Below, in pieces: positions 22,912 to 42,400 of a stretch of DNA of 64,000 nucleotides (positions are counted from its first letter, which is position 1; the number at the start of each line of letters is the position of its first letter). The notes under the pieces are model-generated. The model was not told the DNA's origin. It saw only the letters and a program-made list of their open reading frames with translations, and searched no databases. Origin of the DNA: Candidatus Competibacter sp. (lineage in GTDB: Bacteria > Pseudomonadota > Gammaproteobacteria > Competibacterales > Competibacteraceae); the NCBI GenBank assembly GCA_029624815.1, contig JARSSH010000045.1, forward strand, positions 1-64,000, given 5' to 3'. Position numbers and translations under genes: made by a program.

Positions 22912-22927
22912 AGCAAGCACCGTGCCC
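22912..22927 (-). promoter_or_regulatory. Candidate sigma-54 promoter of nifB
   Basis: The minus strand reads GGGCACG-N4-TTGCT, matching the -24/-12 consensus at all but the first base. It lies about 80 bases before the chosen nifB start. Confidence 0.8.
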
Positions 22928-22989
22928 GTTTCGAATAGTCCGATAACTTATTGCCGAAAATGATTTTTGTCGCAGGGGGTCGGATGGTC

Positions 22990-23005
22990 TGTGGCGTTTG
23001 CCACA
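22990..23005. promoter_or_regulatory. NifA upstream activator sequence of nifB, extended dyad
   Basis: TGTGGC-N4-GCCACA contains TGT-N10-ACA and is a longer perfect dyad than the minimal NifA site. It is about 65 bases upstream of the -24 element of nifB. Because the site is symmetrical it could also act on the plus-strand TAXI transporter. Confidence 0.75.
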
Positions 23006-23445
23006 GGAGGAAGAGAGCGATTGTTGGTTATGGAACAAGAACGACACCGGGAGTCGGTTCGGACTGGTGTCCACACCCAACTCTTGCCTATGGCGCGGTA
23101 CGGTTGAATGGAAGCCGTATGGCTAGACGAGTGTGGTTGAGTCAGTTAAGTTAATAACTCGCGGAATAAAGCCAGTCGGCATATCCATGTAATTTTGTGG
23201 GTTCTTAAGCTTGCCAAGTAGTTGTTTTTTTCCAAAAAACAACAAAGAATTATAGCAATAAATTATAGCAATAAATTAGACAAATAAGATCTCTTCTACT
23301 ATATCCTTCTCCTATGGTTTGAAAAGTTGGTGGTTTACCAGCTATTTAATTTCATGTATTTTCGAATAAGCAGTTTAATCGGTCGCACTACCCCGTGTGG
23401 CCAAACCGGGCGATAGATTCGCTTTTACCACCAAAAAGAGAGGGC
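23006..23445. other. AT-rich intergenic region between nifB and the TAXI transporter
   Basis: About 440 bases with no credible gene. It holds a 10-bp perfect hairpin with a T/A-rich stem (GTTGTTTTTT, loop TCC, AAAAAACAAC at 23221-23243) and two tandem 13-base units ATTATAGCAATAA at 23249-23274 followed by a partial third. A 67-codon open frame at 22951-23154 runs through the NifA-type site and has no family resemblance; it is taken as chance. The plus-strand promoter of the TAXI operon is probably in this stretch, but I cannot mark it. Confidence 0.6.
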
Positions 23446-23448
23446 ATG

Positions 23449-24417: not shown

Positions 24418-24519
24418 TCATCGTGGCCGGCGAGCGGGTGACCGGGAGGGTTGCCCGTTCGATCGATTTCCCTCGCAGTTAGGTATTTGGTTCGTGTTTT
24501 GATGTGGCCGGGGTGTCCT

Positions 24520-25494
24520 ATGAAAGCGAATCGCTTAACCAGCATTTTCGTCGCCTCGATGGTCCTGATTCTGGGAGCGGGCGCCGCGCGGCCGGTTGGG
24601 GCCGAGGAAATCGCCATCGGAACCGCCAGTCGCGCCGGTGTGTATTTTCAGGTCGGGCAGGCTATCTGCCGGTTGCTGAGCGCCGCCCCCGCCGGGCGTG
24701 ATCTGGCCTGCAAGGCGTTGCCAACGGATGGCTCCATCTTCAACCTGCAACAAATTCGATCTGGCAAGTCGCAACTCGGCGTCGTGCAGTCCGATTGGCA
24801 GTATCGCGCCACCAACGGCACGGGGGTATTCGAATCGGCGGGACCGGACACCGATCTGCGGGCCTTGTTTTCCGTGCATGGCGAACCCTTCACCGTGGTG
24901 GCTCGCCGCGACGCCGGCATCAAGACCTTTGACGATCTCAAGGGCAAACGGGTCAACATCGGGAACCTCGGTTCCGGTCAGCGCGCCACCATGGAAGTGC
25001 TCATGGACGCCAAAGGGTGGGACAAGAGCGTTTTTTCCCTGACCAACGATCTATCGGCCTCCGAACAGTCCCTGGCGCTTTGCCATGACCGCGTCCAGGC
25101 CATGGTCTACGTCGTGGGGCATCCGAACGCGTCCGTGGCCCAGAGCGTCAACCTGTGCGATGCCGTCATCGTGCCGGTGGAGGGGCCGGCGGTCGACCGG
25201 TTGCTGACCGACAACCCTTATTACGCCCGTACCCAGGTGCCTGGCGGAGTCTATAAGGGCAACTCGAAATCGGTCGGCACATTCGGCGTCAAGGCCACGG
25301 TCGTGGCTTCCACCCAGCTGAGCCCCGACACCGTCTATCTTTTGGTCAAGACGGTGTTCGAAAATCTGGATGACTTCAAAAAGCAGCACCCGGCATTCGC
25401 CGACCTGGAAGCGGCGGGCATGATCAAGGACGGACTTTCGGCGCCGCTGCACGAAGGAGCGCTGCGTTACTATCGGGAAAAGGGCTGGTTGTGA
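24520..25494 (+). CDS. TAXI-family TRAP transporter solute-binding protein, copy 2
   Basis: A 324-residue paralog of the preceding protein, with signal peptide MKANRLTSIFVASMVLILGAGAARPVGAEE. It keeps IAIGTASRAGVYFQVGQAICRLL and DDLKGKRVNIGNLGSGQRATMEVLM. A 49-base tract at 24914-24962 is identical to 23834-23882 of copy 1, although the rest has diverged considerably; this suggests gene conversion. The two copies may have different ligands and share one permease. Confidence 0.92.
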   Translation: MKANRLTSIFVASMVLILGAGAARPVGAEEIAIGTASRAGVYFQVGQAICRLLSAAPAGRDLACKALPTDGSIFNLQQIRSGKSQLGVVQSDWQYRATNGTGVFESAGPDTDLRALFSVHGEPFTVVARRDAGIKTFDDLKGKRVNIGNLGSGQRATMEVLMDAKGWDKSVFSLTNDLSASEQSLALCHDRVQAMVYVVGHPNASVAQSVNLCDAVIVPVEGPAVDRLLTDNPYYARTQVPGGVYKGNSKSVGTFGVKATVVASTQLSPDTVYLLVKTVFENLDDFKKQHPAFADLEAAGMIKDGLSAPLHEGALRYYREKGWL

Positions 25495-25608: not shown

Positions 25609-28212
25609 ATGAGCGATCAAGCTGCTAACGAATCGGCGATGTCGGAAGAGGAATTGCAGGATCTGGTGGCCGAGGCCGATACCGGCGCCCGATCCCCGCA
25701 AGGCATTCCCCAGAAGATTTTGCTCGGCGGGGCCGCCGCCTGGTCGCTGTTTCAATTATGGATCGCATCGCCCTTGCCTTTCATGATCGGCTTTGGCGTG
25801 TTCAACGATACCGAAACCCGCTCTATCCACTTGGCGTTTGCGATTTTCCTGGCTTTTCTGGGCTACCCCGCGCTCAAGCGATCGCCACGCCATTACATTC
25901 CCCTGCAGGACTGGGTCATGGCGGCGGTCGGCGCTTTCTGCGCCGGCTATCTGTTCCTGTTCTATAACGAGCTATCGCAGCGGCCTGGGGCACCCAACAC
26001 CCAGGATGTGATCGTGGCTTGCGTGGGCATGGTGCTGCTGCTGGAAGCGACGCGGCGGGCACTGGGGCCACCGCTGATGGTGATGGCCATGCTGTTTCTG
26101 GGTTATACCTTTGCCGGCCCCCACATGCCGTCGATCATCGCCCACAAGGGCGCCAGCCTGAACGCGGTGGTCAATCATCAATGGATCACCACCGAGGGCG
26201 TGTTCGGCATCGCCCTGGGCGTTTCCACCAGTTTCGTGTTTCTGTTCGTGCTGTTCGGGGCGATGCTGGACAAGGCCGGGGCGGGCAACTACTTCATCAA
26301 AGTGGCTTTTTCCTTGCTGGGGCACATGCGCGGCGGTCCGGCCAAGGCGGCGGTGGTTTCCTCGGGCCTGACCGGGTTGATCTCGGGTTCCTCCATCGCC
26401 AACGTGGTGACCACCGGCACCTTCACCATCCCCATGATGAAGCGGGTCGGCTTTCCGGCGGAGAAGGCCGGAGCGGTCGAGGTGGCTTCCTCGGTCAACG
26501 GCCAGATCATGCCGCCGGTGATGGGCGCGGCGGCCTTCCTGATGGTGGAATATGTCGGCATCTCCTATTTCGAGGTCATCACCCACGCGTTCATCCCGGC
26601 GCTGATTTCCTACATCGCCCTGGTGTATATCGTTCACCTCGAAGCCTTGAAGGCCAACATGCAGGGGCTGCCGAAACCTGGGGTGGCCAAACCCTGGTTG
26701 CAGCGCATCATCGGCACGCTGTTTGGGTTCCTGGCCACCGCCGCCCTGGCCATGGCGGTCTATTACGGCATCGGCTGGCTGAAGCCGGCCTTGGGCGATG
26801 CCGCCACCTGGGTCATTTCATTGTTGCTGGCCGTGGTCTATGTCGCGCTGGTTTGGGTCGGCTCCCGCTATCCCGAACTGGAAATGGACGATCCCAGCGC
26901 GCCGGTGGTTCATTTGCCGGAAACCGGACCGACCGTCAAATCCGGCTTGCATTTCATCCTCCCGGTCATCGTACTGGTTTGGTGTCTGATGGTGGAGCGG
27001 CTGTCGCCGGGCTTGTCCGCCTTCTGGGCCTCGGTGCTGATGGTGGTCATCCTGCTTACTCAGCGGCCCTTGTTCGCGCTGTTTCGCGGCGAAGGCCAGA
27101 TCGGCGCCGCCATCCGCCGCGGTTACGACGATCTGGTCGATGGATTGATCGCCGGCGCCCGCAACATGATCGGCATCGGCATTGCCACGGCCACCGCTGG
27201 GATTATCGTCGGCGCGGTTTCCCAGACCGGCGTCGGCTTGGTGCTGGCCGACCTGGTGGAGATTCTGTCGCTCGGCAATATCCTGCTGATGTTGATCCTG
27301 ACCGCGGTGCTTAGCCTGATTCTGGGCATGGGATTGCCCACCACCGCCAACTACATCGTGGTGTCGTCGCTGTTGGCGCCGGTCATCGTCACCCTGGGCG
27401 AGCAATCGGGTTTGATCGTGCCGTTGATCGCCGTCCATCTGTTCGTGTTTTTCTTTGGCATCATGGCCGATGTCACGCCGCCGGTCGGGCTGGCGTCCTT
27501 CGCCGCCGCGGCGATTTCCGGCGGCGACCCGATCAAAACCGGCATCGTGGCGTTCGTTTACAGCCTGCGCACCGCCATTCTGCCGTTTTTGTTCATCTAC
27601 AACACCGACTTGCTGTTGATCAACGTGGACTGGGTGCATGGCGTCATCATTTTTGTCGTGGCCACCATTGCCATGCTGTTGTTCGCCGCTGCCATGCAAG
27701 GCTATTTCTTCGCGCGGAGTCGGTTTCACGAATCCATTCTGTTGATGCTGATCGCCTTCACGCTGTTCCGTCCCGGTTTCTGGATGGACATGATCTTCCC
27801 GCCTTACGAGGAGCTGGCGCCCGCGCAGTTGATGGCGGAGGCTGATAAGCTGGCATCGGGCATGGAGATCCGATTGCATATCGATGGCACCGACGATGTG
27901 GGCAAGCCGCGCAGTTTTGTGGCCGTACTGCCGATGGGCGACGGCGCCACGGGCGAGGAGCGCCTGACGGACACCGGCCTTGAAGTGATCGCGGAAGACG
28001 GCAAGCTCTTGGTCGATAACGTCACTTTCGGTAGCGCCGCCCAGAAAGCGGGTTTGGCTTTCGATCAAAGCATCCACGGAGTGTTGTTGCCCCTGGATCA
28101 GCCCCGGAAGGAATGGTTGTGGCTTCCCGCGTTTTTGATTCTGGCGCTGATCGTCAAGCTGCAACGAGCGCGTCTTGGCCGTGAAACGGCGGCAGCGCCG
28201 GCTACCGTTTAA
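25609..28212 (+). CDS. Fused TRAP transporter permease (DctQ-DctM, TAXI type) with DUF3394
   Basis: An 867-residue membrane protein. It has a DctQ-like N-terminal part with four segments (about 45-165), a DctM-like large part (about 165-720, with SGLTGLISGSSIANVVTTGTFTIPMMKRVGF and NGQIMPPVMGAAAFLM), and a C-terminal extension (about 720-850) of the DUF3394 type beginning RSRFHESILLMLIAFTLFRPGFWMD. The fused permease and the TAXI proteins form one uptake system. It lies 114 bases after the second binding protein, with GGAGACCCTG before the ATG. Confidence 0.93.
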   Translation: MSDQAANESAMSEEELQDLVAEADTGARSPQGIPQKILLGGAAAWSLFQLWIASPLPFMIGFGVFNDTETRSIHLAFAIFLAFLGYPALKRSPRHYIPLQDWVMAAVGAFCAGYLFLFYNELSQRPGAPNTQDVIVACVGMVLLLEATRRALGPPLMVMAMLFLGYTFAGPHMPSIIAHKGASLNAVVNHQWITTEGVFGIALGVSTSFVFLFVLFGAMLDKAGAGNYFIKVAFSLLGHMRGGPAKAAVVSSGLTGLISGSSIANVVTTGTFTIPMMKRVGFPAEKAGAVEVASSVNGQIMPPVMGAAAFLMVEYVGISYFEVITHAFIPALISYIALVYIVHLEALKANMQGLPKPGVAKPWLQRIIGTLFGFLATAALAMAVYYGIGWLKPALGDAATWVISLLLAVVYVALVWVGSRYPELEMDDPSAPVVHLPETGPTVKSGLHFILPVIVLVWCLMVERLSPGLSAFWASVLMVVILLTQRPLFALFRGEGQIGAAIRRGYDDLVDGLIAGARNMIGIGIATATAGIIVGAVSQTGVGLVLADLVEILSLGNILLMLILTAVLSLILGMGLPTTANYIVVSSLLAPVIVTLGEQSGLIVPLIAVHLFVFFFGIMADVTPPVGLASFAAAAISGGDPIKTGIVAFVYSLRTAILPFLFIYNTDLLLINVDWVHGVIIFVVATIAMLLFAAAMQGYFFARSRFHESILLMLIAFTLFRPGFWMDMIFPPYEELAPAQLMAEADKLASGMEIRLHIDGTDDVGKPRSFVAVLPMGDGATGEERLTDTGLEVIAEDGKLLVDNVTFGSAAQKAGLAFDQSIHGVLLPLDQPRKEWLWLPAFLILALIVKLQRARLGRETAAAPATV

Positions 28213-28223
28213 TGGAGGCTCCC

Positions 28224-28652
28224 GTGTATAAAGATATCCTTTTTCCCATTGATTTGAATCACGAAAGTTCTTGGGTCGGCGTGTTGCCGTCGGTGATCGA
28301 GTATTGCAAAACCTTCAACTCGCGTCTGCACGTTGTCACGGTAGTGCCGGATTTCAGCATGCCGCTGGTCGGTAGCTATTTCCCCGCGAACTTCGGCGAC
28401 AAAATGGTGGAGGACACCAACAAGCGTCTGCACGCGTTCATCAGGGAGCATGTGCCCTCCGAGGTCCATGTGCAGCACATTGTCGCCGAGGGTGTCGTGT
28501 ATAAGGAAATCATCCGGGTCGCCAATGAAGTTGACGCCGATCTCATCATCATGGCCTCGCATCGCCCGGAATTGGGGGATTTTTTGGTGGGTCCAAACGC
28601 GGAGCGAGTGGTCCGGCATTTCAACAAGTCCGTGCTGGTGGTTAGAAATTGA
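28224..28652 (+). CDS. Universal stress protein, UspA family, coupled to the TAXI permease
   Basis: A 142-residue Usp (YKDILFPIDLNHESSWVGVLPS; LIIMASHRPELGDFLVGPNAERVVRHFNKSVLVVRN). The GTG at 28224 has GGAGG five bases upstream. An ATG at 28212 overlaps the permease stop but has no ribosome site. The typical G-x2-G-x9-G motif for ATP is weakened here (SHRPELGDFLVGPNAERV). This second pairing of a Usp with a TRAP transporter in one window supports a regulatory role in uptake. Confidence 0.85.
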   Translation: MYKDILFPIDLNHESSWVGVLPSVIEYCKTFNSRLHVVTVVPDFSMPLVGSYFPANFGDKMVEDTNKRLHAFIREHVPSEVHVQHIVAEGVVYKEIIRVANEVDADLIIMASHRPELGDFLVGPNAERVVRHFNKSVLVVRN

Positions 28653-28949: not shown

Positions 28950-31835
28950 ATGGCACTTAAGACAAAATCGGAAAAGGTGCAAGGCAAGGCAAGTAAAAAA
29001 GCAGGCATTTCACTCAATGCCTGCCGCAATATCATACAGTTGCGAACGGATAGCTGGAAACGTCTTAAGAATGACGCCAAACGCCTTGCGGATGCGGTGG
29101 TCGAGGGAAGGGATCACGAAAGACTGAAACAAAAGGTTGGCGATGGCTTGGCATTGTTGGAACCTATCGACAGCTATTGGGCATTTCCAAGCCGGCAGGA
29201 TTTTCAATATCTTTACGAACTGTTCGATGGGGGCGAGTACGATCGGCTAAGCAAGGTATGCACCCGTGTCAATCGGACCCTGACCAGCTTGTCTTATCGC
29301 CATAAGCCGATTTCCCTGAGCAGTAGCGACGGTGGCGTCGATGTGGGGGACGATTCGGAAGATTTTTCGGACGCTTACCAAGAGCGGGAGGGTCAGAATT
29401 ATCTGAACCGACCTTATTTCGAAGTCTTGATCGTGGATAACATTTCGCCCCGCGAAGAGGAAGCACTCAAGATCGGATTGCGCAAGATGCGCAGAATCGA
29501 AGATAAATTCGTCTATGAAATCGTCGTGGTTCCGAGTTTCGAAGATGCCATCATTGCAGCCCTGTTCAATTTCAATATTCAGGCTTGCGTCATTCGCTAC
29601 GGTTTTCCATTCAAGTCCAAACACCAGTTGGAGATGCTTCGCCAACTTCTGGAAGATCATGAAGGCGAGGAGAATGAGAATCTATCGGAAAGCGACTATG
29701 GTCCGGTGCTTGGCGCCAAGATCGCCGAGATTCGCCCTGAAATCGATTTGTACCTGGTGACCGATGCGGCGGTCGAGAGCATGGCTGGCAAGCTGTGCCG
29801 TAACTTCAGGCGTGTCTTCTACCGCGAAGAAGACTACATGGAACTGGATCTCAGTATCCTGCGCGGTATTGGCGCCCGTTACAACACGCCGTTTTTCACC
29901 GCGCTCAGGGAGTACAGCAAACAACCGACCGGTGTGTTCCACGCCCTGCCTATTTCCCGAGGCAAATCCATCATCAAATCCAACTGGATTCAGGACATGC
30001 TCCAGTTTTATGGACCCAATGTCTTCATGGCGGAAACCTCGGCCACCTCGGGCGGGCTGGATTCCCTGCTCGATCCGACTGGCCCGATCAAGAAGGCCCA
30101 GGAATTGGCCGCCCGCGCATTCGGCGCGCGCCAGACGTTTTTCGTGACCAACGGCACTTCGACCGGCAACAAGATCGTGGTGCAGGCCTTGGTCGAGCCG
30201 GGCGACATCGTGCTGGTGGATCGTAACTGTCACAAATCGCACCATTACGGCGTCGTCCTGGCGGGCGCACAGGTCGCTTATCTGGACGCTTATCCGCTGG
30301 AAGCGTACACCATGTACGGGGCCGTGCCTCTGCGGCATATCAAGGAAACCTTGCTGGCCTATCGCCGCGCCGGCCTGTTGGATCGGGTGAAAATGATCAC
30401 GCTCACCAACTGCACCTTCGACGGAGTCATCTACGACGTTGAGCGGGTCATGGAGGAGTGTTTGGCGATCAAGCCGAACCTGATCTTCCTGTGGGACGAA
30501 GCCTGGTTCGCCTTTGCCTACTTTCACCCGACCTACCGGCGGCGCACCGGGATGGCCACGGCGGCGCGCCTGCGCGAACGCTACCGGGACTCGACGTATC
30601 GGGAACGCTATCGGGTCTTCAAGGAAGCATTCGACCAGCGCGACCCAAACGATGATCGGAGTTGGCTGGAGACCCGTTTGCTACCCGATCCCGACCGAGT
30701 CCGGGTGCGCGTCTACGTCACGCAATCGACCCACAAGCGACTGACTTCGTTGCGTCAGGGATCGATGATTCATGTGCACGATCAGGACTTCAAGCATCGG
30801 GTGGAGGACGCTTTTCATGAAGCGTACATGACCCATACGTCCACCTCGCCGAATTACCAGATTCTGGCGTCCCTGGATATCGGACGGCGCCAGGTCGAAC
30901 TGGAGGGTTTCGAACTGGTGCAGAAGCAAACGGATCTGGCCATGGCGCTGCGGGAAACGGTCGGTAGCCATCCTTTGCTCCAGAAGTATTTTGCTTTCCT
31001 GGCCATTCAGGATTTGATACCGGCCCAATATCGTCCTTCCGGAATCGATCTTTATTACAGCGCGGAGAAAGGCTGGTCTCGCATGGAAACCGCTTGGCGA
31101 CGGGATGAATTCGTGCTCGATCCTAGCCATTTGAACTTGAATATCGGTTTAACCGGAATCGACGGCGATCATTTCAAACATGACTATTTGATGGATAAGT
31201 ACGGTATTCAGATCAACAAGACCACCCGCAATACGGTCCTGTTCATGACCAATATCGGCACGACCCGCAGTTCCGTCGCTTATCTCATCGAAGTACTGGT
31301 CAAGATCGCTCAGGAGTTGGATGAAACTTTGGAGGAAATGAGTCCGATAGAAAGGCGTCTGCATCAGCAAAAGATCAAGTCCCTGACCGAGGATAATCCA
31401 CCCTTGCCCGATTTCAGTTATTTCCATCCCTTTTTCCGGTCTCACCCGGAAATACCGACCCGCGAAGGGGATCTACGCCAAGCGTTCTTCATGTCCTATA
31501 AGGACAGTTTGTGTGAGTATCTCAAGCTTTCGACGGTGCGCAAGCAAAGCGCTGCCGGGCGGGAAGTGGTCTCCGCCATGTTCGTCATTCCTTATCCACC
31601 CGGATTTCCCGTGTTGGTGCCGGGACAGGTCATCAGCGAAGGCACTCTGGCATTCATGCAGGCGCTTGATACCCGCGAGATCCATGGCTATCGGCCGGAA
31701 TTGGGTTTCCGGGTTTTTACCGAGGCTGCCTTGAAGATGGATCAAGCAGCTAAGGATCGGATCGGGAATGTCGGACAAGTCGACGAAAAATCCACTCTTC
31801 ATGCGGCGGTGGAAATTGCCGCTTCCGAGGGATAG
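28950..31835 (+). CDS. Large fold-type-I PLP-dependent Arg/Lys/Orn decarboxylase
   Basis: A 961-residue member of the Orn/Lys/Arg decarboxylase family. N-terminal residues 1-130 are Lys-rich and helical with no recognised domain. A receiver-like wing domain follows (about 150-280), then the PLP domain: FVTNGTSTGNKIVVQ, DRNCHKSHHYG, FLWDEAWFAF and the Schiff-base Lys596 in STHKRLTSLRQGSM. It is about 200 residues longer than AdiA or LdcI. Substrate (Arg, Lys or Orn) cannot be told. It leads a cluster with an ATP-grasp ligase and a C45-type hydrolase. AAAGGA precedes the ATG. Confidence 0.88.
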   Translation: MALKTKSEKVQGKASKKAGISLNACRNIIQLRTDSWKRLKNDAKRLADAVVEGRDHERLKQKVGDGLALLEPIDSYWAFPSRQDFQYLYELFDGGEYDRLSKVCTRVNRTLTSLSYRHKPISLSSSDGGVDVGDDSEDFSDAYQEREGQNYLNRPYFEVLIVDNISPREEEALKIGLRKMRRIEDKFVYEIVVVPSFEDAIIAALFNFNIQACVIRYGFPFKSKHQLEMLRQLLEDHEGEENENLSESDYGPVLGAKIAEIRPEIDLYLVTDAAVESMAGKLCRNFRRVFYREEDYMELDLSILRGIGARYNTPFFTALREYSKQPTGVFHALPISRGKSIIKSNWIQDMLQFYGPNVFMAETSATSGGLDSLLDPTGPIKKAQELAARAFGARQTFFVTNGTSTGNKIVVQALVEPGDIVLVDRNCHKSHHYGVVLAGAQVAYLDAYPLEAYTMYGAVPLRHIKETLLAYRRAGLLDRVKMITLTNCTFDGVIYDVERVMEECLAIKPNLIFLWDEAWFAFAYFHPTYRRRTGMATAARLRERYRDSTYRERYRVFKEAFDQRDPNDDRSWLETRLLPDPDRVRVRVYVTQSTHKRLTSLRQGSMIHVHDQDFKHRVEDAFHEAYMTHTSTSPNYQILASLDIGRRQVELEGFELVQKQTDLAMALRETVGSHPLLQKYFAFLAIQDLIPAQYRPSGIDLYYSAEKGWSRMETAWRRDEFVLDPSHLNLNIGLTGIDGDHFKHDYLMDKYGIQINKTTRNTVLFMTNIGTTRSSVAYLIEVLVKIAQELDETLEEMSPIERRLHQQKIKSLTEDNPPLPDFSYFHPFFRSHPEIPTREGDLRQAFFMSYKDSLCEYLKLSTVRKQSAAGREVVSAMFVIPYPPGFPVLVPGQVISEGTLAFMQALDTREIHGYRPELGFRVFTEAALKMDQAAKDRIGNVGQVDEKSTLHAAVEIAASEG

Positions 31836-31925
31836 GCTGTCTTGAAAAGATATGGCAGGCTAGTCGATTGGCTTTTGACAGAACTGCGTAAAATTTGGAA
31901 TAAACCAGCGTTGGAGATAACAGGC

Positions 31926-33383
31926 ATGAAGAAAACCTTGCAAGGCATTTCCGATATTCGTCGCTATTTTCATCGTAACGAGCGGCCGGTGTTTTTTATC
32001 AGCGCCACTAACTTCAATCTACTTGGCATCGACGAGTGGGTAAAGGGGTTTAAGTACATTTGCTATATCGATTGTTACGATGGCCAGCATCCGAATGTCT
32101 TCGTGCCGAGCGAGATTCCTCATCCGGAATTCGAAAGCATCGAGGATATTAATAACTATCTGTTGGAACACAAGGAGGTGATCGATTATATTAGGAGTCA
32201 CGGCGACAATCCGGTGGCGGTATTTTTGATGTTCGACGAAAAGACCGAAGCCCTGTGCCGGGAACTCGGCATCGAAATCTGGTTTCCGCCGGCCAGCCTG
32301 CGCAGCCGCTGCGACAACAAGATGGAGACGGTGCGCATCGGCAACATGGCGGGTGTGCCCAGCGCGCCCAATGCGCTGTCCAAGGTGGAGAGCTACTCGC
32401 ACTTGCGCGCGCTGGCCAAGGAACACCGTTTGGGTGACGATCTGGTGATTCAGACCGCGTTCGGCGATTCCGGCCACACCACTTTTTTCATTTCCAGCGA
32501 GGAAGACTGGAACAAGCACGCCGACGAGATCGTCTGCGATCCCGAAGTCAAGATCATGAAACGCCTCAACTGCCGGGGTTCGACCCTGGAAGCCTGCACC
32601 ACGCGCAAGGGCACCATCGTTGGGCCTTTGCTGACCGAAGTCGTGGGGGCCAAGGAGTTGACACCCTATAAAGGCGGTTGGTGCGGCAACGAAATTTTTC
32701 CGGGCGCTTTCACCCAGCGCATTCGCGACCAGGCGCGCGATTACACCTTCAAGTTCGGCGAGCAACTGCGCAAGGAAGGCTATCGCGGCTACTTCGATCT
32801 GGATTATCTGATCGATTTGGACAGCGGCGAACTCTATCTGGGCGAACTCAACCCGCGGGTCACGGGCGCCAGTTCGATGACCAATCATGCGGCGTTCGCT
32901 CATGCCGACGCGCCGCTGTTCCTGTTTCACCTGCTGGAATTCGCGGGCGTGGATTTTTCCTTTGATGTGGATGATCTCAATTCACGCTGGTCGGATCCCG
33001 ATTACATCGACAGTTGGTGTCAGTTAGTGATCAAGCACACCGAGGATAGCGTGGATGTGGTCACCCAGGCGCCCGCCAGCGGAATCTGGAAAATGAACGA
33101 CGATGGTTCGATTGCCTACAGTCGTTTCGATTATCATCGGCGCGCGGTGGCCAGCGAGCGCGAGGCGTTTTTCCTGCGGATTACCGGTCCCGACGATTTT
33201 CGCTATGAAGGCGCCGATTTGGGGATTCTGATCCTGCGTGGCCGGTCGATGACCGACGATTTTGTTTTGAACGATCGAGCGCATGCCTGGATCAAGGGGA
33301 TTCTCGATCACTATCAAGCCAGACCCCTGGAAACGGCGCAGGTTGAATCGGCGCCCACGGCGGGTGCTTTCAAAATCCTCTGA
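31926..33383 (+). CDS. ATP-grasp ligase of unknown substrate
   Basis: A 485-residue ATP-grasp protein. The N-terminal part (1-130) has MKKTLQGISDIRRYFHRNERPVFFISATNFNLLGIDEWVKG. The ATP-grasp core is about 135-345, with a nucleotide-binding Lys region and the metal-binding motif GELNPRVTGASSMTNHA around residue 310. The C-terminal part (about 350-470) is unassigned. ATP-grasp enzymes usually join a carboxylate to an amine via an acyl phosphate. It sits 90 bases after the decarboxylase, so the amine made there is a plausible acceptor; this is inference. Biotin carboxylase annotation is unlikely because its partner domains are absent. Confidence 0.8.
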   Translation: MKKTLQGISDIRRYFHRNERPVFFISATNFNLLGIDEWVKGFKYICYIDCYDGQHPNVFVPSEIPHPEFESIEDINNYLLEHKEVIDYIRSHGDNPVAVFLMFDEKTEALCRELGIEIWFPPASLRSRCDNKMETVRIGNMAGVPSAPNALSKVESYSHLRALAKEHRLGDDLVIQTAFGDSGHTTFFISSEEDWNKHADEIVCDPEVKIMKRLNCRGSTLEACTTRKGTIVGPLLTEVVGAKELTPYKGGWCGNEIFPGAFTQRIRDQARDYTFKFGEQLRKEGYRGYFDLDYLIDLDSGELYLGELNPRVTGASSMTNHAAFAHADAPLFLFHLLEFAGVDFSFDVDDLNSRWSDPDYIDSWCQLVIKHTEDSVDVVTQAPASGIWKMNDDGSIAYSRFDYHRRAVASEREAFFLRITGPDDFRYEGADLGILILRGRSMTDDFVLNDRAHAWIKGILDHYQARPLETAQVESAPTAGAFKIL

Positions 33384-33476
33384 CACCGTGGCGGGTTGTG
33401 GTCGTCATCGCATCGTTCGACGCGATGACGAACCCGGCAACAGGGATCGAGTTTCGCAGTATTGAGGAATCCGCCC

Positions 33477-34475
33477 ATGGAGCGCGTTTTTGAAGCTATT
33501 GAGGAGGATCAGCCAGGCCCCAAATGGCAGGATCTTTTCCTGAAACACTGGCCAGCCTACCGGCGCTGGTTTTTGAGCGAGGGCAATAAGGCGCGACCCT
33601 TGTATCTCAGCTCGATTCGTCGCTTGAAAACGCATATGCCGGAATTGATGGCCACCTACGAGCGTCTCGTGGAACTGGGCGGTGGCGGCGATTTGGCCGC
33701 CCGTTTCCTGTCGTTGTATTGTCCGCCCCCTTATTTGAGCGGTTGCTCCCAGGCGGTTTGGTCCGGAGCAATCCCCTTGCTGGTTCGCAACTACGATTAC
33801 AGCCCGCAATTGTTCGAGGCGGTGATTCTGAAAACGGCTTGGAACCGCCGTCGGGTCATCGCCGTGAGCGATTGCCTGTGGGGGGTGCTGGATGGCTTGA
33901 ACGAGGATGGCTTGGCCGTTTCCCTGACCTTCGGAGGACGGCGGGTCGTGGGCGAGGGGTTTGGCGTGCCACTGCTGTTGCGCTATATCCTGGAATTTTG
34001 CACCACTACGCAGGAGGCGGTGGAGGTGCTGAAGCGGGTGCCGACCCACATGGCCTACAACATCACCGTGTTGGATCGCGGCGGAACCTTCATGACGGTT
34101 TTCATCGCTCCCGACCGGTCGGCGATCGTCAAGCCCGTCCCTGTCACCACCAATCACCAGCAGGAGGTAGAGTGGCATCAGCACGCCCAAGCCACGGCGA
34201 CCCTGGAACGGGAGCGCTTTCTACGTTTTCGGCTGCGGGAGAGCATCGAGAGTCCCGACAAGTTGGTGCAGGCTTTTCTGCGCTCGCCGGTGTACTCGAC
34301 CGCCTATGCGCGCGGTTTCGGCACGCTGTATACGGCGGTATACCGGCCGCTGAGCGGAGAAGCCGAGTATCTTTGGCCCAACGGCGCCTGGAAACAGTCC
34401 TTTCACGCCTTTGAAGAGGGCGGGCGCGTCGTGCGTTTTCCCCATGCCCTCGAACCGACCGAAATGCTGCATTGA
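33477..34475 (+). CDS. C45-like Ntn-hydrolase (acyl-CoA:6-APA acyltransferase/carcinine-hydrolase type)
   Basis: A 332-residue protein of the C45 N-terminal-nucleophile family. The likely self-processing site is before Cys90 in YLSGCSQAVWSG, with the downstream RNYDYSP stretch typical of C45 proteins. VSDCLWGVLDGLNEDGLAVSLTFGG matches the second conserved block, and NITVLDRGGTFMTVFIAPD the third. Members cut or transfer amide-linked acyl groups: isopenicillin N, carcinine, acylated amines. Together with the ATP-grasp enzyme this suggests making and breaking of one amide bond. ATG at 33477 follows GAGGA; an upstream TTG is also possible. Confidence 0.78.
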   Translation: MERVFEAIEEDQPGPKWQDLFLKHWPAYRRWFLSEGNKARPLYLSSIRRLKTHMPELMATYERLVELGGGGDLAARFLSLYCPPPYLSGCSQAVWSGAIPLLVRNYDYSPQLFEAVILKTAWNRRRVIAVSDCLWGVLDGLNEDGLAVSLTFGGRRVVGEGFGVPLLLRYILEFCTTTQEAVEVLKRVPTHMAYNITVLDRGGTFMTVFIAPDRSAIVKPVPVTTNHQQEVEWHQHAQATATLERERFLRFRLRESIESPDKLVQAFLRSPVYSTAYARGFGTLYTAVYRPLSGEAEYLWPNGAWKQSFHAFEEGGRVVRFPHALEPTEMLH

Positions 34476-34533
34476 GCCACGATGTGAGAATTTTCTCCCG
34501 GCGTCAGCGGAGGAAAACGGGAGAAAGCGATTT

Positions 34534-35829
34534 TTATTGGGGCAGACCCGATGCTTCCACCAGACGATCGATGGGTTGTTCCGCCCTGAGCAGTTCGAAA
34601 CGCACGGTGTTGTCCTCTCCGATGCGAAAGCCGTAAACGGCGGCATCGGGGAGGCTGTTGTACTGGAAGGGCGTGGAAAAATAGTAGGCGCCGGTATCGT
34701 GGGCCAGGATGAAATCCCCCGGTTCGAGCAGCGGCAGCGGGCGTTCGTGAGCGATGATGTCGCCGGCGAAGCAGCACGGACCCGCCACATCCTGAGGAAC
34801 CTTCTCGCCCCGCTTGAACCGGCCTTGCGCGTCGAAGGCGCTCAGGCGGATGGCCCACATCTCCGGCAGGAACACCGTGCGCGCCGCGACCTGCGCGCCG
34901 GCGTGGGTGATGGCGATATGCCGGCCGCCGCTGGTTTTGGTGTACTCCACGCGGGCGGCGATGAAACCGTTCTTGGCCACGACCGACCGTCCGAACTCGG
35001 TAATGACCCGATAGTCTCCCGAAAACAGGGCGGGCGCGCGGGCGCGCAGCAGCGCGGCGTATTCGGCGTAACTCGGGGTGAATTCGTCGCTGGCGAAGTT
35101 GACCGGCAAGCCGCCGCCGATGTCGAGAACTTGCACCTGCCGGCGTCCCACGGCGGCATTGATCTCCTCCGCGAAGGCCACCACCTTGGCGATGCCGCTG
35201 GCGATGAGTTCGAGCGAACAGCCTTGCGAGCCGACATGGGTATGCACGCCGGTCAACCACGGCCGCTCGATATACGCTTGAATCAGCCGGTCTCGCTGGC
35301 CTTCATCTTCGAGTGGGATGCCGAATTTCGAGGTGCGGGTGGCGGTGCTGGTGGCGGCGATGGCGCCGACCCCGACCTGCGGATTGATGCGAATACCGAT
35401 CTCGGAATTCGACGTTAAAGTGGCCATCAGCGTGGTCACCCGCTCCAGCTCCTGGAAGTTGTCGATGTTCAACGCGATGCCCTGCCGCAACGCCTGTTCG
35501 ATTTCCCCCAGCGTCTTGGCCGGGGAGTCGAGCACGATTTCATGGGGCAGAAATCCGGCGCGGCACGCTTGCGCGAACTCGCCGGGGCTGGCGACCTCGC
35601 ACCCCATGCCGCATTCGCGCAATAGAGCGAGCACTCGATGCAGGCAGTTGGCCTTGGCCGCGAAGGCGTGGGTGAAGTGGCCGTCGAACGCCGCCCGTAG
35701 GTCAGCCACGGTCCTTGCGATGCCGTCCAGGTCGATAAAGGCCGCCAGCAGGTGGGTTTCCCCCAGCAGTCCTCGCGCGATGGCCGCCTGCATTACGGCT
35801 GCTTTGCGGAGAGAGATGTCGTCGTTCAT
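34534..35829 (-). CDS. Fold-type-III PLP decarboxylase (Orn/DAP decarboxylase family)
   Basis: A 431-residue alanine-racemase-fold decarboxylase. The PLP Lys is Lys59 in HAFAAKANCLHRVL; later motifs are GCEVASPGEFAQAC, GIRINPQVG, TGVHTHVGSQG, LDIGGGLPVNF, ITEFGRSVVA and GPCCFAGDIIAHE, the Cys-containing partner-subunit loop. YYFSTPFQYNSLPDAAVYGF is near the C terminus. It differs from LysA and biosynthetic SpeA in length. It is convergent with the C45 gene, so co-regulation is possible but not shown. AAAGGAG precedes the ATG. Confidence 0.88.
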   Translation of the reverse strand: MNDDISLRKAAVMQAAIARGLLGETHLLAAFIDLDGIARTVADLRAAFDGHFTHAFAAKANCLHRVLALLRECGMGCEVASPGEFAQACRAGFLPHEIVLDSPAKTLGEIEQALRQGIALNIDNFQELERVTTLMATLTSNSEIGIRINPQVGVGAIAATSTATRTSKFGIPLEDEGQRDRLIQAYIERPWLTGVHTHVGSQGCSLELIASGIAKVVAFAEEINAAVGRRQVQVLDIGGGLPVNFASDEFTPSYAEYAALLRARAPALFSGDYRVITEFGRSVVAKNGFIAARVEYTKTSGGRHIAITHAGAQVAARTVFLPEMWAIRLSAFDAQGRFKRGEKVPQDVAGPCCFAGDIIAHERPLPLLEPGDFILAHDTGAYYFSTPFQYNSLPDAAVYGFRIGEDNTVRFELLRAEQPIDRLVEASGLPQ

Positions 35830-36444
35830 GGTTGGCTCCTTTAGCGGATTGTCGACCATTGCCATGGTCTCCGATTACGGTCAACACGGAAGCCGGCAAA
35901 AAGGTGCGCGCCGCGCCGATTTGGCGCTCAGGCAGTCGTCGGCTGGAAAACTGTCCATTATATATATCCATAAGATCATGATTTTTTGAATTAAAAAAGG
36001 GAAATCTCCTCCCCCCTCGCGGGGAGGGCGAGGGAGGAGGGTGAGGTTCGATCGCAACCCCCCGAGTTCGCGACCCGAGAATCGGGCAACCCCCCACCCC
36101 AACCCTCCTCCACAAGGGAGGAGGGCGACTTGTGTGTAACGGACAGCCCCACAAGGGAGGGCGCTTGGTGAAAGGACGCCAGCCGCCTGGAAAGGCTAGC
36201 GTGATTGAGGAAATCGATCATCAGTATGTCACTTGACGTTGTCATTCTGCGCCATGTCGCGCTTGGGAGTGTATCTGACTAAGTTACTCTGTTGAAAAAC
36301 AAAAAAGCAGTGCTATAAAGTCATCGTCAAATTCTTGCTTCCAATACGAAACAGTAATACCGGGCCTCTCGCGAGGGAGGCGGAAAGTCGCGGGGCCTTG
36401 AAAGGCGGCGCGGCTTTGTGTTTTAGCGGACGAGGGGAGACGAG
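35830..36444. other. Intergenic region with G/C-rich palindromes, upstream of the RHS gene
   Basis: About 615 bases without a gene. At 36005-36135 are C-rich and G-rich blocks (CCTCCTCCCCCCTCGCGGGGAGGG type and a second CCTCCTCCACAAGGGAGGAGG), which can form hairpins and resemble dispersed intergenic repeats. The last 40 bases hold a GAGGGGAG ribosome site for the RHS gene. No promoter was recognised. Confidence 0.6.
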
Positions 36445-39400
36445 ATGCGAAACCGTGGCTCCATGCTGTTGGGGATTTTGGCGATTCTGGGCAGTGGCTT
36501 TTTGCTGGTGGCGGACCCGGTTTCGTTCGCCGCCAAGCCCAGAACCCCGGCCGCCCGCGCCGCGGTCGTCCAAGCGGTCGCGGCCGGGGACATCAATGGC
36601 GACGGCGTGGTCAACGCCCTCGACGTGGTCGCGGTCATCAATCATCTCCTGGGCCTGCAATCCTGGCCCGGCGCCGATGTCAACGGCGACGGCGTGGTCA
36701 ACGCCCTCGACGTGGTGTTCGTCATCAACCAGGTGCTGGGGATCGCGGTCAACCAGGCTCCGCAAGTCCACGCGGGAGCCGACCAGACCATCACTCTGCC
36801 CGCCGCCGCGAACCTGAGCGGCACGGTCAGCGACGACGGCTTGCCCAATCCCCCCGGCGCGGTCACGATCGCCTGGTCCAAGGACAGCGGCCCCGGCACG
36901 GTGGCGTTTGGCAACGCCCATGTCGCCAGCACCACCGCGACCTTCGGCGCGGACGGCGTGTATGTCCTGCGCCTGACCGCGAACGATGGCGCGTTGCCCG
37001 CCAGCGATACCGTGCAGGTCACCGTCAATCCGGTCGGCGGCGGTACGCTGCCGCCCGATCCGGCCGACGTGGCTCCGCCGGTCGATCCCACGGTGACCAC
37101 CACCATCGGCGTGGCCACCGAGTTCCTCTACACCGGCGGCAATCCGATTCAGACCGGCGTCGCGCCGGGAACCATCGAGGCCAAACGCGCCGCCGTGCTG
37201 CGCGGACGGGTATTGGACAAGCAAAACAATCCGCTGTCCGGTGTGACGCTCACCGTTTTGAATCATCCCGAATTCGGCCAGACCTTGAGCCGGGCCGATG
37301 GCGGGTTCGACATGGCGGTCAACGGCGGCGGCTGGCTGACGGTGAATTACCGGAAGGTCGGCTATCTGCCCGCCCAGCGGCAGGTCAACGCGCCGTGGCA
37401 GGATTACGTGGTGCTGGATGACGTGGTGCTGATCGCCCGCGACGCGCAGGCGACGACCGTGGATTTGACCCAGCCCACCGTGCGGGTCGCGCAGGGTTCG
37501 GCGGTGACGGATCAGGATGGGACGCGCCAGGCGACCCTGCTGATCCCGCCGGGCACCACCGCTCAGGTCTACAACCCGGATGGCACGACCCGGACGGTAT
37601 CGAGCCTGACCTTACGGGCGACCGAGTACACCGTGGGCGCGAACGGTCCGCAGACCATGCCCGCGCCGTTACCCCCGACCAGCGGTTATACCTATGCCGT
37701 TGAATTGAGCGCTGACGAAGCGACAATGAAGAAAGACGGCCAAGATGTGCTGTTCAATCAGCCGGTGCCATTCTATGTCGAGAATTTCCTGAATTTCCCG
37801 GTGGGCGGCGAGGTGCCGGTCGGCTATTACGACAATACGAAAGGGGCATGGATACCGTCGGAGAATGGACGGGTCATCAAGATTCTGGGCGTCGCGGGCG
37901 GTCGCGCTAATCTGGACGTGACGGGTAGCGGTCAACCGGCGGATGCGGCGGCCCTAGCGGCGCTGGGGATTACCGACGCCGAACGGGAGCGCTTGGCGGG
38001 ACTCTATCCGGCCGGCAAGAGCTTGTGGCGGGTCAGGCTGACGCATCTTTCGACCTGGGATTGCAATTGGCCGTTTGGGCCACCGCCAGATGCGGAAGGT
38101 TCTAAGGAAAAGTCGAAAAATGAAGATGATCACCGACCGGATGATGAGTGTCGTGCTTCCGGCTCCGTCATCGGCTGCGAAAGTCAGACCTTGGGCGAAG
38201 TCATCCCCTTGGTTGGAACCAGTCTCTCGCTCAATTACCGCAGTGACCGGGTACCGGGGCATCTTTCTGCCCGTACTTTGAAAATCCCACTCAGCGGCGA
38301 CACGATCCCCGCCAGCCTCAAGCGAATTGAAGCGTCCGTGAACGTCGCGGGTCGCAGCATTGATCTTGGTACCTTCCCAGCCCAAACCAACCAGACCACA
38401 ACCTTTACCTGGGATGGCCAGAACGCCTATAAACAGGTGCTTCAGGGTAGACAGCCCGCGACCGTCAAGGTCGGTTATGTATACGACGGCGTTTATCAAA
38501 GCCCAGTACGATTTGGCGAAGCTTCGGGAGTCACGATCACCGGTAGCCGTACCCGTCAGGAAGTGACCTTGTGGCGAAGCTTTGAGACCTATGTCGGTGT
38601 TTTTGATCTGCGGCAAGCCGGCGTTGCGGGTTGGAGCCTGGACGTGCATCACATCTACAATCCCATGGGCAAGGTGCTTTACCAGGGCAATGGAACACAG
38701 CGTAGTGCGGAAAATGTGAAAAACATCATCATCACCCTTGCCAGAAGCTCCACCACGCCGTTCGCAGTCTACATACCAGAGGAGGTCGCGGTCGGGATTG
38801 ATGGCAGCATCTTCATTGCGGAAGCTGGCAACAACCGTATCCAGCGGGTGGGACCAGACGGCATTATCACCACCTTCGCCGGCACGGGACAAGCAGGATT
38901 CAGCGGCGACGGCGGCCCAGCTACCCAAGCAAAATTATACTATCCTGAGGGAGTTGCGGTCGCGGCCGATGGCAGTGTCTTCATTGCGGATACTTACAAC
39001 AGCCGCATCCGGCGGGTGGGGCCAGACGGCATCACCACCACCTTCGCCGGCACGGGACAAGCAGGATTCAGCGGCGACGGCGGCCCAGCTACCCAAGCAA
39101 AATTATACTATCCTGAGGGAGTTGCGGTCGCGGCCGATGGTAGTGTCTTCATTGCGGATAGTTTAAACGGCCGTATCCGGCAGGTGGGGCCAGACGGCAT
39201 CATCACCACCTTCGCCGGCACTGGGCAAGCAGGATTCAGCGGCGACGGCGGCCCAGCTACCCTGGCAAGATTAAGCCGCCTAGGTGGAGTTGCGGTTGCG
39301 GCTGATGGCAGTGTCTTCATTGCGGATACTTACAACAGCCGCATCCGGCGGGTGGGGCCAGACGGCATCATCACCACCTTCGCCGGCACGGGGCAAGCAG

Positions 39401-42400
39401 GATTCAGCGGCGACGGCGGCCCAGCTACCCTGGCAAGATTAAACTACCCTGATGGAATTGCGGTTGCGGCCGATGGCAGCGTCTTCATTGCGGAAGCTAA
39501 CAACAACCGCATCCGGCGGGTGGGGCCAGACGGCATCATCACCACCTCCGCCGGCACGGGGCAAAAAGGATATAGCGGTGACGGCGGCCCAGCTACCCAG
39601 GCGCAATTAGGCCTCCCTGAGGGAGTTGCAGTTGCGGCCGATGGCAGTGTCTTCATTGCGGATACTAACAACGGTCGTATCCGGCGGATTCTAAACCTGC
39701 TTCCCGAATTCGATCTCAATGAGTTAAGCATCGCCTCCACCGACGGTCGCCTGCTTTATCGCTTTGACCAATACGGTCGCCACCTCAGCACGGTGGATAC
39801 CTTCACCGGGGCGCCACTGTACACCTTCGCTTACGACAGCGCCGGGCGGTTGAGCAGCATCACCGACGCCGATAACAATATCACCACCATCGAACGGGAC
39901 GGCAACGGCAATCCCACCGCCCTTGTCGCGCCCTTCGGCCAACGCACCACGCTGAGCGTGGACGGCAACGGCTATCTGGCCAGCGTTACCAATCCGGCGG
40001 GCGAAACCTATCAGATGCAATATACCGCCGACGGCCTGTTGACCCGCTTCACCGATCCGCTCAACCACGCCTCGCAGTTCGCCTACGACGCCTTGGGGCG
40101 GTTGCGGAACGACGCCAACGCGGCGGGTGGCAGCCAGACCTTGGCCCGAACCGAACTGGCGGACGGTTACACCGTCACTCGCGGCACCGCGCTGAACCGG
40201 ACCACAGCCTACACCGTGGAAGACCGGTCCACCGGCGACCGCCGGCGCACCATCGTTACGCCCGATGGTTTAACCACACAAACCCTGCTCGGCACCAATG
40301 GCAGCGCCCACGTCACCGCCCCGGACGGCACCGTGACCGACTCGCTGGATGGTCCCGACCCGCGTTTCGGTATGCAGGCGCCGATCACTAGCAGCAGCAC
40401 GGTTACCACTGGCGGCTTGACCGCGACCACTGCCAGCGCCGCCACCGTGAACCCGGCGGCTCCGACCGATCTGCTAACCTTCAACACGCTCACCCGTACC
40501 GCCACGATCAATGGGCGCACCTCCACCAGCGTTTACGACAAAGCCACCCGCAAGACCACCGTCACCAGCGCCGCCGGGCGGCAGGGTTACAGCGTCCTCG
40601 ATGCCAAAGGGCGGGTGATCGAAGTTGGCGTGACCGGTCTCGAACCGATCACCATAAGCTACGACGCCCGTGGTCGCCTGAGCAGCTTCCACCAAGGCAG
40701 CGGCGCAGACGCCCGCACCACCACCTTCAACTACAACGTGGCGGGCTATCTGCAATCCGCCACCGACGCCCTCGGCCATAGCGGTCAGTTGGAGTATGAC
40801 GATGCCGGACGGGTCATCGTCCAAACCTTGGCGAACGGCCAACAGATCGACTTTGGCTACGATGCCAAGGGCAATCTGACCAGCCTCACCCCGCCCGGTC
40901 AACCGGCGCATGGCTTCACCTACAACGCGGTGGATCTGGCGACGAGCTACCTCCCGCCCACGGTGCCCGGTGGCGGCGATACCGGTTACGAGTACAACGC
41001 CGACCAGCAACTGACGAAAATCACTCGCCCCGACGGTGGCGTATTGAGCTACGCCTACGATGCGGCGGGTCGGTTGAGCACGCTCACCATTCCGGCGGGT
41101 CAATACGGCTACAGCTACAATGCCGCCGGGCAACTGAGCGGCATTACGGCCCCCGGCGGCCTGACCCTTGCCTATGGCTATGCTGGTTCCCTGTTGACCA
41201 GCGCTACCTGGAGCGGCGGGATCAGCGGCAGCGTCGGGTTCGGTTATGACACCGACTTCCGCGTCAACCAGATCATGGTCAACGGCGCCAATCCGGTCGC
41301 CTACCAGTACGACGCCGATAGTCTGCTCATCCAAGCAGGCGATCTCACCTACGCCCGCGATGCTGACAATGGCCTGCTCACCGGCAGCACCTTGGGCAGC
41401 GTGAACGACAGCACCACCTACAACGGTTTTGGCGAACCGACCCAATATCTCGCCCGCGCCAACGCCACCGATTTGTTGAACATCGCCTATACCCGCGACA
41501 AGCTGGGGCGGATCACCCAAAAGGTGGAAACCGTGAGCGGCGGCGCGGCGGTCACGTATGACTATGGCTACGACGCCATCGGCCAGTTGATCGAGGTCAA
41601 GCAGAATGGCGCGACCGTCGCCAACTACGTCTACGACGCCAACGGCAATCGGCTGAGCAAAACCGCCGGTGGCAGCACGGTCACCGGCGCCTACGACGCC
41701 CAGGATCGGATGCTGACTTACGGCAACGCCACCTACACCTACACCGCCAACGGCGAGTTGAAGACCAAAGTAGTCGGCGGCCAAACCACCGCCTATGACT
41801 ATGACGCGCTCGGCAATTTGCGCGGTGTGACCCTGCCCAGCGGGACGCAGATCGCGTATCTGATTGACGGCAAAAATCGGCGCGTGGGCAAAAAGGTCAA
41901 TGGCGCGCTGGTGCAAGGCTTCCTGTATCAGGGTTGGTTGCAACTTGCTGCTGAACTTGACTCTAGTGGGGCCATCGTCAGCCGCTTTGTTTACGGCAAG
42001 GGAATCAACGTGCCGGATTATATGGTCAAGGGCGGCGCGACCTATCGCATCGTCACCGATCACCTCGGTAGTCCGCGTTTGGTGGTGAATACCGCAACCG
42101 GCGCGATTGAACAGCGGATGGATTATGACGAATACGGCAATGTGCTGACGGATACCAATCCGGGATTCCAGCCGTTTGGCTTTGCGGGGGGGATTTATGA
42201 CCGGGATACCGGGTTGGTCAGGTTCGGGGCAAGGGATTATGAGGCGGTGAGTGGGAGGTGGATGTCGAAGGATCAGTCTGGACTTGCTAATGATTTAAAT
42301 TCCTATAGATATGCTATCAATAATCCGACGGTATTCAGGGATATCAATGGTAAAGATGTCACTTTAGGTGATGCCTTATGCGTACAAGCAGCGGCCGCAT

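Follow-up and report, generated by a model that had tools for sequence, protein, structure and literature searches.

A conserved ATP-grasp ligase and C45 hydrolase module in Candidatus Competibacter and other proteobacteria, with a probable role in breaking down a compound of the arginine or ornithine type to GABA

Introduction

Two described routes to GABA come closest to the locus examined here. In the Puu pathway of E. coli (PuuA, B, C, D, E and R), gamma-glutamylated putrescine is converted to GABA; PuuA is related to glutamine synthetase, and the hydrolase PuuD is of the class-I amidotransferase type. The arginine transamination network of S. meliloti, or CATCH-N, degrades arginine or ornithine by way of GABA and succinate, and its AruI homologue IlvB1 prefers 5-amino-2-oxopentanoate, according to the portion of PMC7268258 used here. 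A third point of comparison is the M. tuberculosis protein Rv2531c, for which cryo-EM structures exist (PDB 9N0N, 9N0O and 9N0P) and to which no activity has been assigned (PMC12910592).

We compared these systems with a locus from a Candidatus Competibacter sp. genome, using a window of 64,000 nucleotides (the whole stretch of DNA analyzed). A preliminary description of the window had proposed a cluster of four genes: a fold-type I PLP decarboxylase (DC1), an ATP-grasp ligase (GRASP), a C45 Ntn-hydrolase (C45) and a fold-III decarboxylase (DC3). All four were found in the places and directions given. It also knew of no described pathway with these genes, and our search of the open-licence literature likewise found no published description of the module.

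Methods

Occurrence of DC1, GRASP and C45 was determined in a single sample of 299 genomes from the phylum. Partner genes were counted at 88 GRASP loci, where each count refers to genes in the flanks.

Conservation and Layout of the Module

The same nine of the 299 genomes hold DC1 (above 1400 bits), GRASP and C45, with seven families represented, and the association of the three is far beyond chance. C45 was close to GRASP at all 88 loci and directly adjacent at nearly all of them, DC1 was close at 74, and a carbon-nitrogen hydrolase family (CNhyd) was found at 75. Relatives of GabT occur at 37 loci (28 of these at 52% identity or more), while relatives of GabD and of PuuR occur at 19 each. 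As no relative of DC3 was found at any of the 88, the proposed cluster stands for three of its members, which are nearly always together, but the four together were never seen. The unit of DC1, GRASP and C45 is real, conserved and undescribed.

Many loci also carry genes for GABA breakdown (GABA transaminase and succinate-semialdehyde dehydrogenase), for a regulator resembling PuuR or GabR and for a transporter of the TAXI-TRAP type, and in Acinetobacter piscicola (L034) a GabR-like gene, gabT, gabD, CNhyd, DC1, GRASP and C45 form one run. The module ranges over alpha-, beta- and gammaproteobacteria, in Acinetobacter, Cupriavidus, Delftia, Bradyrhizobium, Leisingera and Accumulibacter, and is also found on Rhizobium leguminosarum symbiosis plasmids, near nif genes. 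When 67 flanking proteins were assigned to Pfam families to look for recurrent additional neighbours, no other family turned up in more than two of them.

In the window, the transporter lies at 23–28 kb, the cassette at 29–34 kb and PuuR, gabD, gabT and CNhyd at 52–57 kb, so that every component of the module save GabR is present. Four forward-strand genes ahead of DC1 are accessory: two TAXI-type TRAP solute-binding proteins (23,395–24,417, a relative of which adjoins the cassette at about 22 of 88 loci, and 24,451–25,494, with 300 bits to TIGR02122, above the cut-off), which are also paired at one other locus (L019); a fused TRAP transporter permease (25,609–28,212; TIGR02123, 690 bits, above the cut-off; about 22 of 88 loci); and a universal stress protein (28,212–28,652; Pfam Usp, E 2e-22). 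The order TRAP, Usp, DC1 recurs in 12 loci. The group 20 kb further on had been overlooked in the preliminary description. It comprises a PuuR-like XRE-cupin regulator (52,332–52,928, reverse strand; NF007408, 156 bits, below the cut-off of 211) that is divergent from gabD and, on the forward strand, gabD itself (53,177–54,649; NF008415, 886 bits), gabT (54,576–55,982; TIGR00700, 591 bits against a cut-off of 507) and CNhyd (55,990–56,985), which is 80% identical to the CN-hydrolase adjoining C45 in L019. Both GABA-catabolic enzymes are above their curated cut-offs. The gabT reading frame overlaps gabD, and its real start is probably near residue 41; that of CNhyd is likely the ATG at 56,059.

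The Module Enzymes

DC1 (28,950–31,835, forward strand) is an intact protein of 961 amino acids that matches Pfam OKR_DC_1 (PF01276; E 1e-74, 252 bits) and carries an invariant PLP-lysine motif, STHK (S593, T594, H595 and K596). Rv2531c is a full-length relative (PDB 9n0n, 832 bits), but it belongs to a lower-scoring group, whose scores against the DC1 profile are about 1110 bits versus more than 1400 for cassette members; the four genomes of the 299-genome draw at the 1110-bit level all lack GRASP. Docking predicts that Glu526 of LdcI binds the substrate (PMC5607190). This VEKT-motif Glu is common to LdcI and AdiA and is absent from DC1, which has Asn756 at that position, a residue that all readable copies share with Rv2531c. 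The replacement would suit a masked, not a free, side-chain amine.

The module can occur without DC1, which is missing from 14 of the 88 loci, several of which carry an arginine/ornithine 2-oxo-acid route instead. At several DC1-less loci, GRASP and C45 sit inside an arginine/ornithine operon with genes for a racemase-arginase, a D-amino-acid dehydrogenase, a 2-oxo-acid decarboxylase, an aldehyde dehydrogenase and an agmatinase-family enzyme. The two branches look interchangeable, since in most genomes where the cluster lacks DC1 the gene is absent altogether. The AruI/IlvB1 decarboxylase, GabD/GabT and ureohydrolase families of CATCH-N also occur in these operons; by contrast, the portion of the CATCH-N description used here (PMC7268258) includes no step by an ATP-grasp enzyme, a C45 hydrolase or a decarboxylase of the Rv2531c type, and the paper nowhere uses the term "biotin carboxylase".

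GRASP (31,842–33,383, forward strand) is intact, its homologues begin near residue 29, and its real start is likely the ATG at 31,926. It has no Pfam match and scores 775 bits to NF005096 ("biotin carboxylase") against a cut-off of 684. A predicted model (pLDDT 78) has an ATP-grasp fold, bearing out the earlier family assignment, and matches biotin carboxylase, PurK and PylC in a tie, all at Z about 21 and at only 9–15% identity, with urea amidolyase also among the fold matches. PylC acylates the side-chain amine of lysine. Its presence among the matches speaks for masking of an amine, as does the resemblance of C45 to isopenicillin N acyltransferase, while the tie itself counts against the pathway proposed below. 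Glu335, Asn337 and Arg339 are invariant in 31 sequences, keeping the Glu-x-Asn of the metal/nucleotide site and the nucleotide- and acid-site Glu, Asn and Arg of the PylC/PurK/biotin carboxylase group. Where biotin carboxylase reads NPRIQVEH, however, the GRASP family reads NPR[IV][TC]G[AC]S, with Thr or Cys at position 341 and Ala or Cys at 343 in the 31 sequences, and a profile alignment to pyruvate carboxylase showed that catalytic Glu296 and Gln294 are missing. The protein therefore aligns to a named family whose name fails on the active site.

C45 (33,462–34,475, forward strand) is intact, with 174 bits to NF040521 against a cut-off of 85. The top match of its predicted fold is the isopenicillin N acyltransferase precursor (2x1c), at about 14% identity. 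Cys95, the predicted nucleophile, is found in 31 of 31 sequences behind an N-terminal pro-segment, preceded by Gly in 25 and by Ala or Ser in 6, and R-N-x-D is conserved; C45 is predicted to cleave itself before this Cys. Isopenicillin N acyltransferase acts on the amide of an amino-dicarboxylic side chain. To take GRASP and C45 as an amide-making and amide-breaking pair, as was done before, remains the natural reading of the two families.

Proposed Pathway

The gab genes, PuuR and the arginine/ornithine operon setting make GABA and succinate the most likely end points of the pathway. Probably, a compound of the arginine or ornithine type is broken down to GABA by way of a temporarily protected intermediate; the comparative evidence for the destination is solid, and the acyl-protection chemistry is what we infer. 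We give a probability of about 0.4 to the specific version in which an amino acid of the arginine family (ornithine itself, or arginine by way of ornithine) is taken through GABA to succinate with its side-chain amine masked. At the expense of ATP, GRASP would attach a carboxylic acid to this amine. The masked amino acid would then lose its carboxyl and alpha-amino groups through DC1 and a transaminase or, in the DC1-less clusters, through the racemase, D-amino-acid dehydrogenase and 2-oxo-acid decarboxylase, for all of which the genes are present and the use is proposed. An aldehyde dehydrogenase would yield N-acyl-GABA, C45 would strip the acyl group to free GABA, and GabT and GabD, families seen in the window, would complete the route to succinate. 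CNhyd may carry out one further amide hydrolysis, with no fixed place in the scheme. Masking would prevent the cyclisation of 4-aminobutyraldehyde-type intermediates, like gamma-glutamyl masking in the Puu pathway.

Several observations weigh against this pathway. A DC1-less operon could yield GABA without GRASP and C45, and the scheme gives CNhyd, which the Sym-plasmid versions of the cassette lack, no necessary role. At most loci neither GabT nor GabD is in the flanks, the part of those genomes that was searched. Agmatinase-family enzymes in the DC1-less operons indicate arginine, while no arginase-family enzyme was found in the genome of the window.

The module shares with the Puu pathway the GABA end product, the GABA transaminase and a PuuR-like regulator, and its ligase/hydrolase pair could mask and unmask an amine. 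It differs in that the pair is an ATP-grasp enzyme and a C45 Ntn-hydrolase, neither a homologue of PuuA or PuuD, and in that no PuuB-like oxidase recurs at its loci. More tentatively, GRASP and C45 may be a new mask/unmask pair replacing gamma-glutamylation, with DC1 (a new substrate class together with the Rv2531c group) decarboxylating acylated ornithine- or arginine-derived intermediates, to give GABA in bacteria without arginase, agmatinase or deiminase. Despite the broad occurrence of the module, its key enzyme GRASP carries a wrong database name. Identifying the substrate would add an arginine-family catabolic route, show what a large ATP-grasp family and a family of C45 enzymes do, and give a lead for Rv2531c.

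Alternative Readings

The preliminary description had proposed a carcinine-like cycle. In such a scheme GRASP would form an amide of the DC1 amine or of GABA that serves for storage, as a solute or as a signal, C45 would cut the conjugate, and GabT and GabD would clear surplus GABA. The adjacency of GRASP and C45 fits such a cycle, and a ligase paired with a C45 enzyme follows the same logic as ebony and tan. The setting is catabolic, however (GabT, GabD, PuuR- and GabR-like regulators, transporters and arginine-degradation enzymes), and no exporter or biosynthetic genes recur at the loci. With CNhyd, gabT, gabD and PuuR indicating catabolism to GABA instead, we consider the cycle unlikely.

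Salvage of an imported amide is a still weaker candidate. Here TRAP- or Dpp-type uptake would bring in an arginine/ornithine amide or dipeptide, C45 and CNhyd would open it, DC1 and GabT would degrade it, and GRASP would re-ligate one half. Peptide-type ABC transporters and an amidase adjoin the cassette on R. leguminosarum and Roseobacter ponti plasmids, and TAXI-TRAP genes are found in about 22 loci, but transporters differ from lineage to lineage, and an ATP-consuming ligase fits salvage poorly, although C45 has no more constant partner than GRASP.

Little more can be said for an opening of the guanidine group, which we hold to be slightly less probable again. DC1 would turn arginine into agmatine, and GRASP (by PurK-like carboxylation or guanidine acylation), C45 and CNhyd would free the amidine carbon, so that putrescine or GABA is formed with no need for an enzyme of the arginase type. 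The genome of the window has no match to PF00491 (arginase family), PF04371, PF02274 or AstB, and no agmatine deiminase or arginine deiminase was found in it; PF00491 is also missing from 3 of 22 other DC1-cluster genomes, including A. piscicola with its full operon, and PurK and urea amidolyase are among the fold matches of GRASP. Against this, the other 19 of the 22 have arginase-family enzymes, DC1-less operons have their own, and DC1 lacks the Glu common to LdcI and AdiA. We know of no C45 or nitrilase-type enzyme that cleaves an amidine.

A route from the glutamate side, with GRASP making a gamma-glutamyl amide that DC1 decarboxylates, and with C45 or CNhyd releasing GABA from the resulting GABA amide, is improbable. 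Asn756 would fit a side-chain amide, the end product is consistent, and CNhyd is an amidase relative nearest Nit2-type structures, but the arginine/ornithine enzymes of the DC1-less clusters are left unexplained. That GRASP is a biotin carboxylase, as its above-cut-off NF005096 match and fold would have it, is a reading we rejected, as the active-site motif speaks against the activity and GRASP loci have no recurrent gene for a carboxyl carrier or a transferase.

Neighbouring Genes in the Window

DC3 (34,534–35,865, reverse strand) is an intact DapDC-like enzyme (Pfam E 2e-40) that scores 234.8 bits to the LysA model TIGR01048, under the cut-off of 297.9; the real lysA (531 bits) is elsewhere in the same genome. 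Its absence from the 88 loci led us to reject it as a module partner, leaving it a bystander. The cassette sits between nifB and nifLA. No nif/rnf query matched in the flanks of the 88 loci, and no NifA/sigma-54-type site was found ahead of DC1 or gabD in the window; we rejected NifA/sigma-54 control of the cassette and treat the closeness to nif as coincidence or local adaptation.

Three reverse-strand genes between the cassette and the gab group are possible accessories, each resembling a cassette gene of the Accumulibacter loci L025, L031 and L069: two crotonase-family enzymes (46,853–47,668, 72–75% identity, and 49,824–50,618, 61–63%) and, between them, an ADP-forming acyl-CoA ligase (47,683–49,827, 64–66%).

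The cassette and its neighbours in the window

All four genes that the preliminary description reported are present in the window as it described them. The fold-I decarboxylase DC1 (28950-31835, + strand) is a PF01276 protein whose closest solved relative is M. tuberculosis Rv2531c, matched over nearly its full length at 832 bits. The ATP-grasp enzyme GRASP (31842-33383, + strand, start probably at 31926) is a member of NF005096 "biotin carboxylase" with no match in Pfam, and the Ntn-hydrolase C45 (33462-34475, + strand; NF040521/PF03417) is the genome's sole PF03417 match. The fold-III decarboxylase DC3 (34534-35865, − strand) is an orphan lysA-like gene adjoining this cassette, resembling diaminopimelate decarboxylase and scoring under the lysA cut-off; a true lysA is encoded elsewhere in the genome, and three further lysA-like proteins were seen besides it. 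The translation of 36445-42780 reads as a 2111-residue protein with a dockerin-like start, repeated NHL-like segments and Rhs/YD repeats.

Co-occurrence was examined in a single draw of 299 genomes from the phylum, where GRASP was found in nine genomes spanning seven families. Exactly these nine exceeded 1400 bits with the DC1 profile, four further genomes stopping at 1110-1130 bits, comparable to the 1112 bits of Rv2531c itself, and exactly these nine held C45 at E <1e-140. The chance of two such sets matching exactly is ~2e-17 if genomes are treated as independent, which they are not. The three genes also lie close together in the other eight genomes, in varying order. A scan of named genomes added 80 alpha-, beta- and gammaproteobacterial loci, giving 88 overall, with C45 near GRASP at every one (directly downstream in 85) and DC1 near it at 74. 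The proposed four-gene cluster therefore holds for DC1, GRASP and C45, while its second decarboxylase drops out, relatives of DC3 being found at 0 of the 88 GRASP loci.

Further members of the module

Clustering of neighbours identified a carbon-nitrogen hydrolase (CNhyd) as the commonest further partner of the cassette (75/88 loci). GABA transaminase occurs at 37 loci, 28 of them at ≥52% identity, and PuuR-like regulators and GabD-like dehydrogenases at 19 each; a TAXI-TRAP transporter adjoins the cassette in ~22 loci, and a universal stress protein does so in 12. In Acinetobacter piscicola and a Zoogloeaceae genome (loci L034 and L024), a single stretch contains a regulator together with gabT, an aldehyde dehydrogenase, CNhyd, DC1, GRASP and C45. 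The window carries this gene set divided into two blocks, one at 23-34 kb (transporter, stress protein, DC1, GRASP, C45) and one at 52-57 kb (gabD-gabT-CNhyd with a divergent PuuR-like regulator), and its CNhyd shares 80% identity with that adjoining C45 in the nearest relative, L019. A crotonase/ADP-forming acyl-CoA ligase/crotonase trio at 46853-50618 may be an accessory of the module, since three Accumulibacter genomes have an orthologous trio (61-75% identical) after the cassette. Between this trio and the second block lies a partial ISAs1-family transposase (51110-51709), a possible cause of the split.

Substrate and route

DC1 is absent from 14 of the 88 loci, some of them contig ends. 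GRASP-C45 pairs lacking DC1 in Shinella, Labrys, Thiofilum and a Roseateles plasmid sit amid arginine/ornithine-type enzymes: a racemase (best model, ornithine racemase) fused to an arginase-like domain, a D-amino-acid dehydrogenase, an aldehyde dehydrogenase, an agmatinase-family enzyme, an amino acid permease and a 5-guanidino-2-oxopentanoate decarboxylase scoring over cut-off. A full-length DC1 is encoded elsewhere in just one of nine genomes with such a cluster, that of Labrys, which makes DC1 and this branch look like alternatives for stripping the carboxyl and alpha-amino groups from a five-carbon basic amino acid. The fusion (L053:19260-21143 and L104:12810-14597), annotated in the plasmid record just as alanine racemase, is possibly a one-protein arginine to D-ornithine enzyme.

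In S. meliloti, the homologue of this oxo-acid decarboxylase is reported to prefer 5-amino-2-oxopentanoate, the ornithine-derived acid (PMC7268258). With GabT and GabD added, the evidence points to a route from arginine or ornithine to GABA and succinate, and we give a probability of about 0.7 to the reading of the conserved module as catabolic, taking an arginine-family compound to GABA. A caveat is that searches of the window's genome (reported 99.97% complete) found no arginase-family enzyme, no agmatine or arginine deiminase and no AstB; of 22 further genomes carrying DC1 clusters, three likewise lack the arginase family. In these genomes, either the input is not arginine or the guanidine opens by undescribed means.

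Active sites and a possible masking mechanism

The predicted fold of C45 is that of isopenicillin N acyltransferase, with high confidence (pLDDT 93), and its Cys95 is invariant. The predicted fold of GRASP (pLDDT 78) matches biotin carboxylase, PurK and PylC equally (Z ~21), and its ATP and acid site retains Glu, Asn and Arg. Despite the NF005096 membership, the catalytic Glu296 of biotin carboxylase is missing, as the RIQVEH motif reads R-I/V-T/C-G-A-S.

DC1 retains the PLP lysine and has Asn756 in every readable copy, as does Rv2531c, at the position of Glu526 in LdcI and likewise Glu in AdiA; in a lysine decarboxylase, docking predicted that this Glu binds substrate (PMC5607190). We infer that the side chain of the DC1 substrate ends in a neutral group, which acylation of its amine by GRASP would produce; C45 would then take the acyl group off at the end. 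Such masking is alike in logic to the Puu pathway, but the enzymes are unrelated, and we hold it tentatively, at somewhat under even odds.

ALTERNATIVES

Other readings may also apply. A conjugate may be made and broken in a cycle, or the guanidine may be opened by an ATP-dependent device; alternatively, imported amides may be salvaged, or the route may run through a glutamyl-amide.

Nitrogen-fixation surroundings

In the window the module sits between nifB (21403-22920, − strand) and nifL-nifA-rnf, the nifA, nifL, rnfA and rnfC homologues at 57060-63143 being part of a nitrogen-fixation region in the genome. Upstream of nifB (22912-23037) are two NifA-type sites (TGT-N10-ACA; 22990 and 23022) together with a -24/-12 site with one mismatch at 22912-22927; counts of these patterns are near chance across the window, but they are arranged as is usual for nifB. 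On R. leguminosarum symbiosis plasmids, DC1-GRASP-C45 lies beside nifHDKEN (L106) or within ~12 kb of nifA-nifB. Proximity to nif is not a general feature of the module, because the flanks of the 88 loci gave no nif or rnf matches. On these plasmids (L106, L107, L136) the cassette is accompanied by a Dpp-type ABC transporter, an amidase, an RpiR regulator and a serine hydrolase; DC1 and a short hypothetical ORF are split in L106, and L136 has a C45 gene that is broken close to insertion sequences.
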